Made by a program: the position numbers and the translations under genes
Part shown: positions 1 through 9,643 of the stretch, piece by piece
How positions within the stretch are numbered: position 1 is the stretch's first letter
Layout: the number at the start of each line of letters is the position of its first letter
Assembly (NCBI GenBank): GCA_027061995.1
Contig: JAMOUT010000079.1
Span: forward strand, 1 to 64,000
Direction: 5' to 3'
Origin: Candidatus Aminicenantota bacterium
GTDB taxonomy: Bacteria > Acidobacteriota > Aminicenantia > JAMOAD01
Length of the DNA stretch: 64,000 bases
Notes under the pieces: generated by a model
What the model was told of the DNA's origin: nothing
Seen by the model: only the letters and a program-made list of their open reading frames with translations
The model's database searches: none

Positions 1-120
1 CCTACAACAAGAAATTCAAAACCGATTGATTTTATAATGCTCACTCAAATTTACGGCAATTCCAATCCAAAGCACCAATGGATAGATGATATTGAGATTA
101 GGGATGGTTTACCTGAATAA
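1..120 (+). CDS. C-terminal end of a gene truncated by the window edge; possibly a concanavalin A-like/polysaccharide lyase-type secreted protein
   Basis: Frame 1 is open from base 1 to TAA at 118-120 (...FIMLTQIYGNSNPKHQWIDDIEIRDGLPE*); the DDIEIxDG ending resembles lectin/glucanase-fold C-termini. Confidence 0.4.
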   Translation, partial: PTTRNSKPIDFIMLTQIYGNSNPKHQWIDDIEIRDGLPE

Positions 121-161
121 ATCCGCATAAAGTTTTTGTAAAAAAAAGTTGTTTTTAAATA
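84..161 (+). repeat. Left copy of ~75 bp imperfect direct repeat (pairs with 2842-2916)
   Basis: agatgatattgagattagggatggtttacctgaataaatccgcataaagtttttgtaaaaaaaagttgtttttaaata; differs from the right copy by about 3 substitutions and a 3-bp A-tract indel. Confidence 0.9.
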
Positions 162-222
162 AAATAGCGAGCGGCAATAATTTCGCAAGAGTAATAAAAC
201 AAAAAATACAATTCATATCCCC

Positions 223-251
223 TTTACATTATTTCCTTTCGTTGTTATAAT
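223..251 (+). promoter_or_regulatory. Sigma70-like promoter for abiEi
   Basis: TTTACA-N17-TATAAT with TG extended -10, 15 nt before the ATG at 267. Confidence 0.6.
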
Positions 252-266
252 ATACAAGAAACAGAA

Positions 267-842
267 ATGAAATATATGAATTTGTTAAACTTTTATGAAA
301 CAAATATGATAATTAAACCGGAAGATGTCTATTTTTTCGGGAATATTAAAACCGTTAGACCGCAACTAAGCAAATGGGCAAAATCGGGAAAACTTATTGA
401 ATTAAGAAAAGGTTATTATCTTTTGCCGAAAAAGATAAAAAAATATCCCCCGCATTTTTATATCGCAAATACCATTTATTTTCCTTCTTACATCAGTCTT
501 CAATCCGCACTATCCTTTTACGGTTTAATTCCAGAAGCAGTATATTCAATTACATCCGTTTCAACAAGAAAAACCTATGAAATCAAAAATAAACTTGGAA
601 ATTTTATCTACAGACAAATTAAAAAAGAGCTTTTTTTCGGATATAAATTACATAAAATAAATGATTTTCCCGTATTAATCGCAGAACCCGAGAAAGCCAT
701 AATTGATTTGATTTACCTTTCTCATTCGGACACAAAATCATTCAGACTACAAAATCATGAGATTTTGAATAAACAAACAATCAAACTGTATTTAAAGAAA
801 TACCCTAAATGGGTTAATAAAAAGATAGAGGAGATTTTATGA
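267..842 (+). CDS. AbiEi-like type IV antitoxin (winged-helix transcriptional regulator)
   Basis: N-terminal wHTH pattern (LSKWAKSGKLIELRKGYYLLP), C-terminal EPEKAIIDLIYL motif; 4-bp overlap with an AbiEii-like gene. Confidence 0.8.
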   Translation: MKYMNLLNFYETNMIIKPEDVYFFGNIKTVRPQLSKWAKSGKLIELRKGYYLLPKKIKKYPPHFYIANTIYFPSYISLQSALSFYGLIPEAVYSITSVSTRKTYEIKNKLGNFIYRQIKKELFFGYKLHKINDFPVLIAEPEKAIIDLIYLSHSDTKSFRLQNHEILNKQTIKLYLKKYPKWVNKKIEEIL

Positions 843-1633
843 AAGAGAGATTAAAAGAGATAGTTTCAAAATATGATGAACCTCTCTTAAAACTTAATAA
901 AGGAAGGGAATTTTTACAAGAAATTATCCTCTTTTTGCTCTATAAAAAAGGTTTTTCAAGTTATCTGATTTTTGAAGGTGGAACCGCTCTGAGATTGCTT
1001 TACGATTTGCGAAGATTCTCGGAAGATCTTGATTTTTCTGTTTCAAAGGAAATCAATTATGAAAAACTTAAAGAAAAGCTGAAAAGAGAACTTTTATTAA
1101 TGAATTATCAAGTTGAAACAATTTTAAAAGAGGATAAAAATGTTGTTGTATTAAATATTAAATTCATTGAACTTTACGAAGTATTAAAACTTCCGTATAA
1201 AAAACAACTTTCTATTCATATGGAGATTGATAAAAGACCTCCGGCAGGAGGCAAAATTAAATCATCGCTTATCGGAAAAGAATTTTTTTCAAGAATCTAT
1301 CATTATGATTTATCATCGCTTTTTTCAAAAAAACTTCATGCAATATTTTTCAGAGAATATGAAAAAGGGAGGGATTTTTATGATTTACTTTGGTATCTGA
1401 AAAAAAAGATTAAACCTGATTTCGAGTTATTATACTCGGCAACACTTCAAACCAATCCCGAAAAAGCAAAGGAGCTTAAAGATTTGGATTGGGTTGAATT
1501 TTTGAAAAAAAGGATTGAAAAAGTAAATTTTAATAAAATTCGTAGTGATGTAAAACCATTTCTTGAAAATATTGAAGAAGCAAATTTTATAAATAAAAAG
1601 GACATTCTAAAAATTCTCGGGAATTTTTCATAA
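839..1633 (+). CDS. AbiEii-like nucleotidyltransferase toxin
   Basis: Nucleotidyltransferase motifs FEGGTALRLL and FSEDLDFS, and KGRDFYDLLWYL near the C-terminus. Confidence 0.85.
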   Translation: MKERLKEIVSKYDEPLLKLNKGREFLQEIILFLLYKKGFSSYLIFEGGTALRLLYDLRRFSEDLDFSVSKEINYEKLKEKLKRELLLMNYQVETILKEDKNVVVLNIKFIELYEVLKLPYKKQLSIHMEIDKRPPAGGKIKSSLIGKEFFSRIYHYDLSSLFSKKLHAIFFREYEKGRDFYDLLWYLKKKIKPDFELLYSATLQTNPEKAKELKDLDWVEFLKKRIEKVNFNKIRSDVKPFLENIEEANFINKKDILKILGNFS

Positions 1634-1800
1634 TTGCCGATATTACCGATAATATTTTAAAAAACGGATTTTGTTTTGGGGGGAGAAGAACTCAATGGAT
1701 TTTCGTGTCTTACGCTTTTTATCTCCATTGTAATAATTGCTTAAAAGGTTGTTTTGTCAAGATATAAAGATGAGATCAAAGTGATAAAATTTTATTAAAT

Positions 1801-1829
1801 TTGCAATTCCTATTTCTATATGTTAATTT
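1801..1829 (+). promoter_or_regulatory. Predicted promoter of lpxR-like gene, leaderless geometry
   Basis: TTGCAA-N17-TAATTT with TG extended -10; 5 nt to the ATG at 1835; no SD. Confidence 0.5.
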
Positions 1830-1834
1830 AAAAA

Positions 1835-2836
1835 ATGAAAAAAAGTTTTTTAATGTTTATTTTTTTTCTGTTTTTTCTAAGCTTTCAAATATCGGCTGAT
1901 ACTCTTTCCCTTGTAATTGAAAATGACTTTTTTTCGGGAACTGATAAGCATTACACAAATGGTATAAGATTCGGGTGGCTGGGAAAGGGGATAGACGGAG
2001 CAAATCTTGAGTCAAAAAATAATTTTTATTCAAAAATTGTAAAAGGATGGATAAAACTAATCCCATATTTATCGATAGATAAAGATAAATCTTACAACTT
2101 TGGTTTTAGCCTTTATCAAATGATGTTTACCCCAGAAGATATCACAAAAAAAGAACCCAATCACGATGATATCCCGTATGCAGGCCATCTTGTATTATCG
2201 TTTCTTTTGTTTGAGCATGATACTCATTCTTACAATGAATTTAAATTTCAAATTGGTATTGTCGGACCCGATTCAGGAGCCGAAGCAGCTCAAAAATGGT
2301 TTCATAATTTAATAGGGGGAGTTGAGCCTCAGGGGTGGGATACTCAACTGCCCAATCATACCACATTCGGAATAGTTTATGAGCATGGGGTAAGAAGATG
2401 GGAAAAGAGTTATGGTAATGGTTTTTCTTCAGATTTAATCGGTAATATAAGTTTGAGTCTTGGAAACTTTTTTACGGGTTCATCCGTTGGAGCAATGTGG
2501 AGAATTGGAAAAAATTATCCGAAAAATTTTAATGTTTATTATTCGGGGATGATAAATGAGGGGGCTCTTTTGGGTTTACAGACTTTTAATCGGGGCTTCG
2601 GATGGTCTGTAAATTTCGGGCTTTATTTGGATATAATAGCTTATCTTTATGTTATTGATTCCGCAAAGGAATACAATATTGATAGAGGGTATTTTTTGGG
2701 ACGGGCTGTCATCTCTTTCAGCTTATACTTTAACAATTTCCAAATTTCGGTAACAAAGCAAATTCGCACATCAAGCTTAAGCTCTAAGAGGAATGAGTTG
2801 TCTTACGGTGCTGTTTCAATTTTATGGAGAATATGA
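1835..2836 (+). CDS. LpxR-like lipid A deacylase / DUF2219 outer membrane protein
   Basis: Signal peptide, then DTLSLVIENDFFSGTDKHYTNGIRFGWLG and IPYAGHL motifs typical of the LpxR family. Confidence 0.8.
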   Translation: MKKSFLMFIFFLFFLSFQISADTLSLVIENDFFSGTDKHYTNGIRFGWLGKGIDGANLESKNNFYSKIVKGWIKLIPYLSIDKDKSYNFGFSLYQMMFTPEDITKKEPNHDDIPYAGHLVLSFLLFEHDTHSYNEFKFQIGIVGPDSGAEAAQKWFHNLIGGVEPQGWDTQLPNHTTFGIVYEHGVRRWEKSYGNGFSSDLIGNISLSLGNFFTGSSVGAMWRIGKNYPKNFNVYYSGMINEGALLGLQTFNRGFGWSVNFGLYLDIIAYLYVIDSAKEYNIDRGYFLGRAVISFSLYFNNFQISVTKQIRTSSLSSKRNELSYGAVSILWRI

Positions 2837-2841
2837 AACGG

Positions 2842-2916
2842 AGATGATATTGAGATTTGGGATGGTTTGCCTGAATAAATCCGCATAAAGTTTTTGTAAA
2901 AAGTTGTTCTTAAATA
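2842..2916 (+). repeat. Right copy of ~75 bp imperfect direct repeat (pairs with 84-161)
   Basis: agatgatattgagatttgggatggtttgcctgaataaatccgcataaagtttttgtaaaaagttgttcttaaata. Confidence 0.9.
2843..2878 (+). pseudogene. Relic of the 3' end of the gene at 1-120 or of a paralogue
   Basis: Reads DDIEIWDGLPE* in frame immediately after the lpxR stop; matches DDIEIRDGLPE* at 88-120. Confidence 0.7.
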
Positions 2917-3016: not shown

Positions 3017-4417
3017 TTATTCTATTAAAAATCTTGAAAAACGGATTGCGGCTTTTGGGTTTATTTCAACAACAAAACACGAGCCATTCTCAATTACAAA
3101 TGGTCTTATCTCCGAATCTTTGGAAACGGGGGTATAAAAACTTGCCGGCTTTGTCCAATTTTTACCTTTATCAAATGAGGCGCTCATAAGATCTCTGAGA
3201 CTTACGAAAATTCTGTCCGGCATTTTTATATTAAGGTGAGGCATGGATTTATCCCTCTTTTTGAAAAGTTTCCAAAGATCGGTTCCGTATTGGTAATCCA
3301 TTCCGAGATTTGTTCTATAAAAAAACCCTTCCCCTATAACCGCTCCCGTATAATATTCCTGATAAACTCCGAGAATAGAAAAATCTTCCGATAAATAGGC
3401 TTCCCCTCTGTTCGAGTATGCTCCGAATGTTTGAGTATAGTTTGAGCCCCCGTCCGATGATACAAAAGCCACTCCCACCATATTCCTTCCGTAGCGGGTG
3501 AGAAATTCAAGACGGATTCCCCCTTTATTATTGACAACCATATCAATAGGTTGCAACCCTTCTCCCTCATAGAGATTTGATACATCATAGGAAAATTTTT
3601 CTTTGGATTTCCAACTGTCTCCGAAATCCGTTGATGAGTTCGTATAAATATTTAAAATATTTGAGGGGGTTGAGGTTGAAAATATACAGTAAAAATTCGA
3701 ACCGCCCGCCCATTTTAAATAACTAACCGTTAAATCTTCCTTTTGAGAAGGGATAAATTCGGGATATTCGCCGATTTGCTTCCAGCTATCTCCGTAATCA
3801 TCCGACTTAAATATTTTCAAATCATCAATTCTGTATAATTTTTCATTTATGTTGAGTAATTCTCCCGATACACTTTTCGGAGATTCCCATTTTAACCCTT
3901 TATCTTTTGAGAGGATAAATTTTTGTTCGTATTCGGATGTTTTATCAGCCATCTCTTTATAAATTATGATTATATTTCCGTTTTTAAAATACAAAAGATT
4001 TCCGATTTCTCTTTTATACACCCCCTCTCCGTCCAAAACAATGGAGGATGAATTACAAACAGGGGTATGAGAAATTGAAACGGAAAATTTATTTGAGGTT
4101 GTATCTCCGTTTTTAACACTTATAAAGATATTTTTCTTGCTTATATTAAGAGGTATTCCCGTAATGTTTTTATCTATGGTTGCTTTAAGTTTTTTACTAT
4201 TTATAAAAACAGTGGGAACGGATTTATCATCCGCAAGAACCGAAGATTTTTCATTAAAATTCATCCCTTCCACAATAATTGTCGAACCTGTTTTACTTAA
4301 AATCATCTCGGGAGAAACCTTTAATATATAGATAGCCTCATCATCCATTTTGCATCCCGAGAGAAAGAGAATAGGGAATAATATAAAAACCATAATCGGA
4401 AAATATTTTCCGTTCAT
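3017..4417 (-). CDS. Lipoprotein with IPT/TIG-like domain and BNR/sialidase-like repeats
   Basis: Lipobox LFLSGC; IPT-like N-domain (ILSKTGSTIIVEGMNF); SxDxGxxW Asp-box repeats; SD aggagg. Confidence 0.6.
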   Translation of the reverse strand: MNGKYFPIMVFILFPILFLSGCKMDDEAIYILKVSPEMILSKTGSTIIVEGMNFNEKSSVLADDKSVPTVFINSKKLKATIDKNITGIPLNISKKNIFISVKNGDTTSNKFSVSISHTPVCNSSSIVLDGEGVYKREIGNLLYFKNGNIIIIYKEMADKTSEYEQKFILSKDKGLKWESPKSVSGELLNINEKLYRIDDLKIFKSDDYGDSWKQIGEYPEFIPSQKEDLTVSYLKWAGGSNFYCIFSTSTPSNILNIYTNSSTDFGDSWKSKEKFSYDVSNLYEGEGLQPIDMVVNNKGGIRLEFLTRYGRNMVGVAFVSSDGGSNYTQTFGAYSNRGEAYLSEDFSILGVYQEYYTGAVIGEGFFYRTNLGMDYQYGTDLWKLFKKRDKSMPHLNIKMPDRIFVSLRDLMSASFDKGKNWTKPASFYTPVSKDSEIRPFVIENGSCFVVEINPKAAIRFSRFLIE

Positions 4418-4576: not shown

Positions 4577-6700
4577 CTAAAAATTATAAGCAATCTTAAG
4601 TAAAATCGTCCTTTTTTTAGAGATTAACCTGTTTTCGGTTTGTAAAATTTCACTGTAAACGAGATAGACATGGCTTTTGGCTTTCGGAATAAAGTGAATC
4701 CTTACATTTGCAACCAACTCATTATCTTCATTATTGTATTGAAGAAAAGCTGAAGTAAAAAAGTTTGTTGTGGGATTAAAATTTATCCAAACGGCAGGTT
4801 CGTAAGTTTTGAATTTTCCGTTGGCTAACGAGATATCATTATATGAATAATCTATATTAAGAGAAAAAACTCTTGAAATTTTTATCCTTCCCTCCAAGAC
4901 AAATTCTTTTCTTTTCCCCGTATAAAAATCTCCGAAATTATAAAAAAAAGCTGCTGAAAGTGTTCGTGATTTACTTGTGTCAAACTGAATCTCCCATTTT
5001 TTTTCTTTATACATCCCTTGATTTATTATTATTCCTTCGTAAATTTCAAAATCCTCGTCTAATAGTTCTTTTCGTGTTTGAAAATTAAGCTCGAATGATT
5101 CCCCCGACCTTGTCTCGAATCCGAACAACCTGTATTCGTAAAAATCCTCAAGAAGGTTTCCCGAAAGGTCGGATGTCTTGTAATTTTTAATTTTGAATAC
5201 AAAATATTTAAACCCCGCTTTATTTATTCTCGGTCTTGTTTTTATCTGCCAATCAGACCTCTTAATTCCTGTTCTATAAACAAAACCTATTTCCGGTTTA
5301 AAATTTTCTTCAATAACATAGTGCTTGAAATAGACATCAAAAAGATTGTTCGGATAATTAACATAAAATTGATAGGCTTTGTTTTTATCATCTTTTGTAT
5401 CCGAATCATATGTTTTTGCCGCAAAACCTCCTATAATGAGATTTTTATCACCCAAAAAATTAGAAAAGGAGAGAACTCCGTCAACTCCGAGAGATGAATT
5501 ATATTTTCCATTTGTGTATCTGTTGGTTGCGATAAATCCGACATAGGATTTTTTTAATATTTCCCTTCTGACTCTCACTGCGGAATAATTTGAGGGAGCA
5601 TATTCCCCGCTTCGGGAAGTTTCAATGTTAAAGATTCCTATATCATATTTTCCCGCTTTTCCTGTGAGCCGTGCCCCTCCCAAAATCGGAACCTCCTTTC
5701 TATCCGGAGAAAGACCGATTCTTCGGGTGTAGAGAGGCTGAACTTTCCCGGGAATTCCAAAAGAAAATATCCCCGCTCCTTCAAGGAAGAACTCCCTTTT
5801 TTCAGGATAAAAGAGGCTGAATCTCGTGAGATTTATCCTTTTTCTGTCAACTTCCACCTGGCCGAAATCAGGGTGAGCCGTCATATCAAGTGTTAAAGAT
5901 GAAGTCAATGAATACTTTAAGTCAATTCCCGCCCTTAACTTATAATCGGTATTTATATCTTTCTCTTTTTGAATCCCCGATAGAATATAAGGTTTGAGGT
6001 TTATTTTGTTCCCTCTTTTTATCCCCGAAATCCCTTTTAAAATTCCCGCTTTTGAAATCAGCATTATCCCTTCGTTTCTATGAAAGGCTGTCCATAAATC
6101 CTCCTCGTTTTTTCTTGCGATAAATCTTCTGAAATTTATCCCCCACTCTGTTTTTTCAGGATTGAATTTAAGAGTTGAAAACGGAATTTTTATCTCCGCA
6201 CTCCAACCGAAAGTTGTTATTGTTGCCTTTGTATCCCAAATCCCGTTCCAATTTTTGTTTTCATACTTTCCTTCATCCGTTATATATGAATCGAGTTTTG
6301 CTCCATTGGGATTAACGATAAACAAAAATCCGCTTCTCATATCCTTGTAAGTATCAATGATAATTGAAATACTATCATCACTTGAAAAATCTCCGTCTCT
6401 TTCCATCTGTTTTGCAAAAATTTTGTTTGGTTCTGGATCAAAACACTTTATCCCGATATAAAGATTTTTATCATCATATAAAACCCTAATCTCTGTTTTG
6501 AAGGAAGCTTTTTTGCCTACATCGGGTTCTTTCTGAAGGAAATTTGTTGCGGGGATGGCTTTTTCCCAAACATCTTCCGATAGTTTGCCATCAATTCTGA
6601 TATCCGACTTTATTTTTATCGCTTTTATACTTTTAAAATTTTCTCCGTATAAAGAGGACACAAGAATAATGATTATAATTAGTAAGGAATATTTTTTCAT
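4577..6700 (-). CDS. DUF5916-type protein: N-terminal CBM9-like domain plus C-terminal outer membrane beta-barrel
   Basis: Signal peptide; IRIDGKLSEDVWEKAIPATNFLQKEPDVGKKASFKTEIRVLYDDKNLYIGIKCFD; barrel-like C-terminal half. Confidence 0.7.
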   Translation of the reverse strand: MKKYSLLIIIIILVSSLYGENFKSIKAIKIKSDIRIDGKLSEDVWEKAIPATNFLQKEPDVGKKASFKTEIRVLYDDKNLYIGIKCFDPEPNKIFAKQMERDGDFSSDDSISIIIDTYKDMRSGFLFIVNPNGAKLDSYITDEGKYENKNWNGIWDTKATITTFGWSAEIKIPFSTLKFNPEKTEWGINFRRFIARKNEEDLWTAFHRNEGIMLISKAGILKGISGIKRGNKINLKPYILSGIQKEKDINTDYKLRAGIDLKYSLTSSLTLDMTAHPDFGQVEVDRKRINLTRFSLFYPEKREFFLEGAGIFSFGIPGKVQPLYTRRIGLSPDRKEVPILGGARLTGKAGKYDIGIFNIETSRSGEYAPSNYSAVRVRREILKKSYVGFIATNRYTNGKYNSSLGVDGVLSFSNFLGDKNLIIGGFAAKTYDSDTKDDKNKAYQFYVNYPNNLFDVYFKHYVIEENFKPEIGFVYRTGIKRSDWQIKTRPRINKAGFKYFVFKIKNYKTSDLSGNLLEDFYEYRLFGFETRSGESFELNFQTRKELLDEDFEIYEGIIINQGMYKEKKWEIQFDTSKSRTLSAAFFYNFGDFYTGKRKEFVLEGRIKISRVFSLNIDYSYNDISLANGKFKTYEPAVWINFNPTTNFFTSAFLQYNNEDNELVANVRIHFIPKAKSHVYLVYSEILQTENRLISKKRTILLKIAYNF

Positions 6701-8785: not shown

Positions 8786-9643
8786 TTAAACCTCTTTTTT
8801 AACAGCCCTGACAAGAGAATAAAGATTAAGCATAAAAGTTTCCATCGGTTGATCCATTGCATCTTTTATATCAAATTGTTTTAACATATAATCATTCACT
8901 ATTTCATTTTCGTCCGATCCTTTTAATAATCTTTCTCTGATATTCTCCCCTATCTCTTTTGCTCTATTGTAAGAATTATTTAAAAATTCGGAGACCTCTT
9001 TTTGTTTAAAGGGGGTATTGTGAGGTAAAGCAAGGATATTCATATCAAAAGATTTTATTTTTTCCATGGATTCCAAATATTGGGAGTAAGCTGAGAAAAA
9101 CAGAGGTTTTATCTTTTCGTTTTTTTCAAGTATTCCCGAGGAATCTCCGGCAAAAAGAATTTTATTATTCTCCTCGTAAAAAGAGAGAGAGCATCTTGTA
9201 TGCCCGGGAGTTTCAAAAACTTTTATTTTAAAAGTTCCCGATTCAATAATATCTCCCTCTTTTAATACCCTGTCTATTGTTAATTTTTCATAATCATTGT
9301 ATTTTCTCTCTTTTGTAATTGATTCATTCATCTCTTTAATGAAATCTCTTGCCTGCTTTTTTGAAAAAATTATTTTACTTCTTTCGGAGCCCATAATTTT
9401 AGCATCGGGAAACATCTCTTTTAGAAAAGGGATTCCTCCGCAATGATCATAATGGGAATGAGTTAAAAGGACAATATCAATCTTTTCATCAGGATTAAGA
9501 AATTCTTTAATAAATTTATTCAGAAGATTTACTCTGTCAAGTATCCCCGTATCAATCAGGACATTTTTATCCCCTTTTAAAAGATAAAAAGCAAAAGAGC
9601 CGTCAAAAGAATAATAAAAGTTTTCAAGCAATTGTTTTATCAT
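8786..9643 (-). CDS. MBL-fold metallo-hydrolase
   Basis: HSHYDHCGG and FAGDSSG motifs; start moved to 9643 where AAGGAG precedes ATG (longer ORF starts at 9682). Confidence 0.8.
   Translation of the reverse strand: MIKQLLENFYYSFDGSFAFYLLKGDKNVLIDTGILDRVNLLNKFIKEFLNPDEKIDIVLLTHSHYDHCGGIPFLKEMFPDAKIMGSERSKIIFSKKQARDFIKEMNESITKERKYNDYEKLTIDRVLKEGDIIESGTFKIKVFETPGHTRCSLSFYEENNKILFAGDSSGILEKNEKIKPLFFSAYSQYLESMEKIKSFDMNILALPHNTPFKQKEVSEFLNNSYNRAKEIGENIRERLLKGSDENEIVNDYMLKQFDIKDAMDQPMETFMLNLYSLVRAVKKEV

Follow-up and report, generated by a model that had tools for sequence, protein, structure and literature searches.

An AbiE toxin-antitoxin operon and an lpxR gene between two copies of a lipoprotein gene 3' end in a Candidatus Aminicenantota genome

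AbiE is an abortive infection system, described as a type IV toxin-antitoxin by Dy et al. (2014, PMC3985639). Two kinds of known loci resemble the setting in which we found such a pair. In the effector-immunity arrays of Vibrio T6SS loci and in Rhs loci, a new module lies behind a gene and the old 3' end is displaced downstream in direct orientation, with no recombinase; the displaced ends in Vibrio have been attributed to homology-facilitated illegitimate recombination (PMC5361080). Integrative elements at gene 3' ends show a similar order: the gene stays intact, cargo follows, and a second, displaced 3' end lies beyond it in the same orientation.

The locus described here lies in the draft genome of an uncultured bacterium (G000; GCA_027061995.1), assembled in 104 contigs. 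The window, i.e., the whole stretch of DNA that was analysed, comprises 64,000 nucleotides of contig JAMOUT010000079.1 (C79) and starts at the first base of this contig. In contrast to the Vibrio T6SS and Rhs loci, the host gene encodes a lipoprotein instead of a polymorphic toxin, only one event is seen, and no immunity gene is carried. Unlike integrative elements, the locus has no integrase, its two gene ends have diverged, and neither a second site nor recurrence is found. The scar itself is real; its parts, the type of scar and the type of region are known, and the locus is no new kind of mobile element.

Genes and repeats at the start of the contig

The features of the region, in window coordinates, are the following:

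1-120, + strand: 3' end (39 codons and stop) of a lipoprotein gene encoding 284 aa, the remainder of which lies at C12:58365-59219
84-161, + strand: left repeat copy, with the last 11-12 codons of the intact gene (DDIEIRDGLPE, then stop) and about 41-42 bp of 3' flank
267-842, + strand: abiEi, antitoxin/transcriptional regulator, 191 aa (PADLOC AbiEi, 5.6e-53)
839-1633, + strand: abiEii, nucleotidyltransferase-like toxin, 264 aa (PF08843, 2e-24; PADLOC AbiEii, 1.6e-57)
1798-2838, + strand: block conserved with the related genome G003 (83% at the nucleotide level), comprising lpxR with the 37 bp before and the 2 bp after it
1835-2836, + strand: lpxR, outer membrane protein of the lipid A 3'-O-deacylase family, 333 aa (PF09982, 5.9e-71)
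2842-2916, + strand: right repeat copy, with an orphan lipoprotein gene 3' end (DDIEIWDGLPE, then stop) and flank, starting 5 bp past the lpxR stop
3017-4417, - strand: BNR/TIG-domain protein, conserved right flank, with a 57% identical orthologue near the G003 lipoprotein gene

The adjacent abiEi and abiEii genes form a single operon in which the reading frames overlap by 4 bp (839-842), and matches to both families identify the pair as AbiE. AbiEii scores 87.3 bits against PF08843 (cut-off 22.5), and the match of AbiEi to Pfam AbiEi_4 stays below the cut-off. The pair shares with AbiE (PMC3985639) the bicistronic organisation, the overlap and both family matches, and differs from it in sequence divergence only, including this sub-threshold AbiEi match. 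The nearest AbiEii among relatives, in genome G004, is 52% identical. From these assignments, the pair is a predicted type IV toxin-antitoxin for phage defence or addiction.

LpxR enzymes are deacylases that take the 3' acyl group off lipid A. The product of lpxR matches PF09982 over its full length (239.5 bits, profile positions 18-322 of 323), exceeds the cut-off across the barrel and carries an N-terminal signal-like segment, as expected of the family; it differs in having no close solved relative and in the fact that its G003 counterpart stands alone, not with AbiE. The protein is predicted to carry out this deacylation, independently of AbiE.

The initial annotation described near-identical repeats bracketing abiEi, abiEii and lpxR, with about three substitutions and a 3-nt A-tract indel, and alignment bore this out. 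The copies, at 84-153 (extended to 161) and 2842-2911 (extended to 2916), have the same orientation and a start-to-start spacing of 2758. They are 91% identical over a 70-nt ungapped core and 92% identical across 78 bases when a 3-nt gap is allowed; the gapped alignment contains three substitutions (two coding, one near the end) and the gap in the A-tract. The ungapped match of 64/70 compares with a best of 39/70 in 300 first-order Markov shuffles of the region, and the similarity is far above chance. Elsewhere in the genome, the repeat matches only at the end of contig C12, within the overlap of that contig with window positions 1-127. The repeat is thus specific to this locus, and a dispersed repeat family was rejected, as the genome-wide search gave no copy beyond the two repeats and the C12 overlap.

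Window positions 1-127 are an exact copy of the final 127 bp of C12. We infer from this k-mer overlap, and not from reads, that C12 and C79 are neighbours in a k=127 assembly graph. No other 127-bp overlap with contig ends was found at the far end of C79; the C12/C79 overlap is the sole one at the contig ends checked, so the k=127 reading draws on that one pair in G000. The order of genes after joining (DUF6508, lipoprotein gene, the inserted genes, BNR/TIG) agrees with G003. The contig break falls within the left repeat, and a strain variant at exactly that site is possible. Separately, C12:1-106 matches C15:14312-14416 at 99%, and similar shorter pieces occur on many contigs, marking a dispersed repeat.

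Positions G000:C79:1-117 encode lipoprotein residues 246-284 (100% in a protein match), and joining C12 through the 127-bp overlap yields the whole 284-aa gene, which terminates in the left repeat. Since C12 ends in this lipoprotein-like gene, the left repeat is the end of that intact gene. The right repeat matches this ending in the equivalent reading frame but has no gene in front of it, and is a non-coding remnant. The claim that the left repeat covers a gene 3' end and its flank was therefore correct, with most of the gene lying on C12.

The right copy has TGG (Trp) at the position where the intact gene, in the left copy, has AGG (Arg); TGG is also found in 44 of 45 relatives. Because the right copy keeps TGG, it seems to be an allele of its own, older than the left copy and not recently derived from it, as judged from two coding substitutions only.

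Origin of the second gene end

The corresponding place in G003 contains a DUF6508 gene, which precedes the lipoprotein gene in both genomes, followed by the lipoprotein gene (86%), an unrelated 276-aa ORF and the BNR/TIG orthologue. Only one gene end is present there, and both abiE and lpxR are missing. The 276-aa ORF is not present in G000. The slot is thus filled differently in G000 and G003, and the G003 locus is a case of other contents, not of a cleanly empty site. The initial annotation had proposed a search for an empty site with one repeat copy; the single gene end between the same flanks was found, but the slot holds another ORF.

The genes upstream differ as well. On C12, the lipoprotein gene is preceded by a PDDEXK-like protein (weak match), an AAA protein, an McrBC-family component (7.7e-95) and an AAA_14/DUF4143 ATPase (the McrBC-type restriction genes and this ATPase are located at L005:2495-6148). 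The counterpart place in G003 encodes an N6/N4 methylase with an MjaI-type endonuclease and two AAA_14/DUF4143 ATPases. Several defence systems are thus clustered in a variable region, as in a defence island: McrBC and AbiE here, and an MjaI-type restriction-modification system in G003. Provided that the C12-C79 join holds, the region appears to be variable and defence-rich, and AbiE adds one more system to it.

We favour, with a probability of about one half, the reading that the abiE/lpxR DNA entered by recombination at the lipoprotein gene 3' end and displaced the old end downstream. Incoming foreign DNA would have been anchored by its homology to the lipoprotein gene, recombining homologously on the left side and being joined illegitimately inside the old gene end on the right. 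In this way abiEi-abiEii, together with lpxR at the same time or in a later step, would have come to lie between the new and the old 3' ends. We infer both the order of events and the one-sided homology; an older allele at the right end fits them, as a one-sided homologous exchange with an illegitimate join would leave the old end in place. The complete lipoprotein gene obtained by joining C12, the differing upstream defence genes in G000 and G003, the single gene end in G003 and the Vibrio precedent speak for displacement. Against it stand the small number of informative sites (two), the occupied slot in G003, the right flank gene, which is only 57% identical, and the C12-C79 join, which is drawn from the k-mer overlap. 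Diagnostic microhomology is absent at the right junction. Under displacement, no recombinase is needed to place a toxin-antitoxin pair after a resident gene, and the event leaves a readable scar in the form of a second gene end. Direct repeats at gene 3' ends may accordingly be displaced gene ends rather than att sites.

The abrupt start of the right copy 5 bp past the lpxR stop, as expected of a deletion end point, would suit a different history, in which abiE/lpxR landed between two tandem lipoprotein genes and the second copy was then deleted except for its last 33 coding bases. Two alleles per genome are plausible in a family so widely transferred. However, no tandem copy exists in G003, G001 or the loci of the other 44 relatives, and duplication, insertion and deletion would all be required. 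We consider a collapsed tandem duplicate less likely than displacement.

The textbook geometry of the locus (an intact gene with a replaced end, cargo and a displaced end in direct orientation) and the ancestral codon in the right copy would also agree with integrase-type insertion, i.e., a small element carrying a replacement 3' end that kept the gene intact, its integrase being lost or acting in trans. Yet there is no recombinase ORF between the repeats, just as the initial annotation had reported, even if one in trans is conceivable. The copies have diverged by three substitutions and an indel, the repeat is absent elsewhere in the genome, no second copy lies near any of the 45 related gene 3' ends, and lpxR occupies a different, separate context in G003. 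We regard such an insertion as doubtful, and as less probable than a collapsed duplicate. As displacement, tandem collapse and integrase insertion all give the same geometry, the two informative sites do not separate them. The earlier proposal of an insertion at a gene 3' end or a tandem-gene collapse agrees with the single gene end in G003 and the locus-specific repeats.

An artefact of assembly or strain mixture, with a chimeric start of C79 (gene ends from different strains) or a wrong link to C12, is very improbable: the contig break lies within the left repeat, where the assembly graph must fork given the exact 127-bp overlap, but both copies lie in one continuous contig from base 84 with the complete operon and lpxR between them, C12 is the only contig with the overlap, and the joined order agrees with G003. 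We give scarcely more credence to the broader idea that the lipoprotein gene 3' end is a recurrent recombination anchor that admits defence and envelope genes, homology being supplied by alleles in the community.

An integron-like cassette was also considered and rejected, as the 3' flanks of related genes share no common site in the repeat. Inspection of the repeat by eye recognised no attC-like structure.

Separate histories of abiE and lpxR

The pairing of AbiE with a lipid A-modifying enzyme had been put forward as a possible joint defence/envelope-modification island. The comparisons, which covered five genomes at the level of the order and 142 at the level of the class, speak against it. 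The lpxR gene is 89% identical to G003:C42:328-1326, which comes right after the ATP synthase genes, at the end of its contig and without AbiE, and the block conserved between the two genomes contains lpxR only. The GC content of the abiE genes (27-29%) differs from that of lpxR (35%) and of the rest of the window (33%). In G000, tRNA-Val follows the ATP synthase genes, and no scar of lpxR was found behind that operon.

Among the 142 genomes of the class, AbiEii occurs in 71 and LpxR in 42. Outside the present locus, the two share a contig only in G063:C3, about 200 kb apart, and AbiEii does not lie near LpxR in any of the other 41 LpxR-bearing genomes. These counts leave the pairing as a single occurrence, and a recurrent AbiE-LpxR unit was rejected on the basis of this class-wide comparison. 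The two parts appear to have separate histories. Nothing ties AbiE and LpxR functionally, and their adjacency says nothing about a shared function; a literature search for AbiE together with LpxR found no relevant paper.

The lipoprotein family

The lipoprotein gene (L003:683-1537) belongs to no Pfam family. Homologues 55%-85% identical to its product were found at 45 other loci (L038-L083) in unrelated gene contexts, and the titles of their metagenome-assembled genomes span many phyla, with Bacteroidota, Campylobacterota, Aminicenantes, Thiotrichaceae, Rhodobacteraceae and others among the names. A comparison of the neighbours of the gene across the other phyla gave none that recur, and in some cases the homologue is the C-terminal domain of a larger protein. 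This distribution points to a widely transferred and strongly conserved family.

Two of these loci carry near-identical direct repeats of 65-92 bp, L042 at 3-67 and 9004-9068 and L053 at 5064-5155 and 9355-9446; they contain palindromic stretches and bear no relation to the lipoprotein gene end.

An AlphaFold2 model of one homologue (L038:8001-8849) is a beta-sandwich with a pLDDT of 92. Among solved structures, it best matches alginate/glucuronan lyases and X122 domains (TM 0.47-0.51, about 12% identity), so the modelled homologue is predicted to have a lectin/polysaccharide-lyase-like fold.
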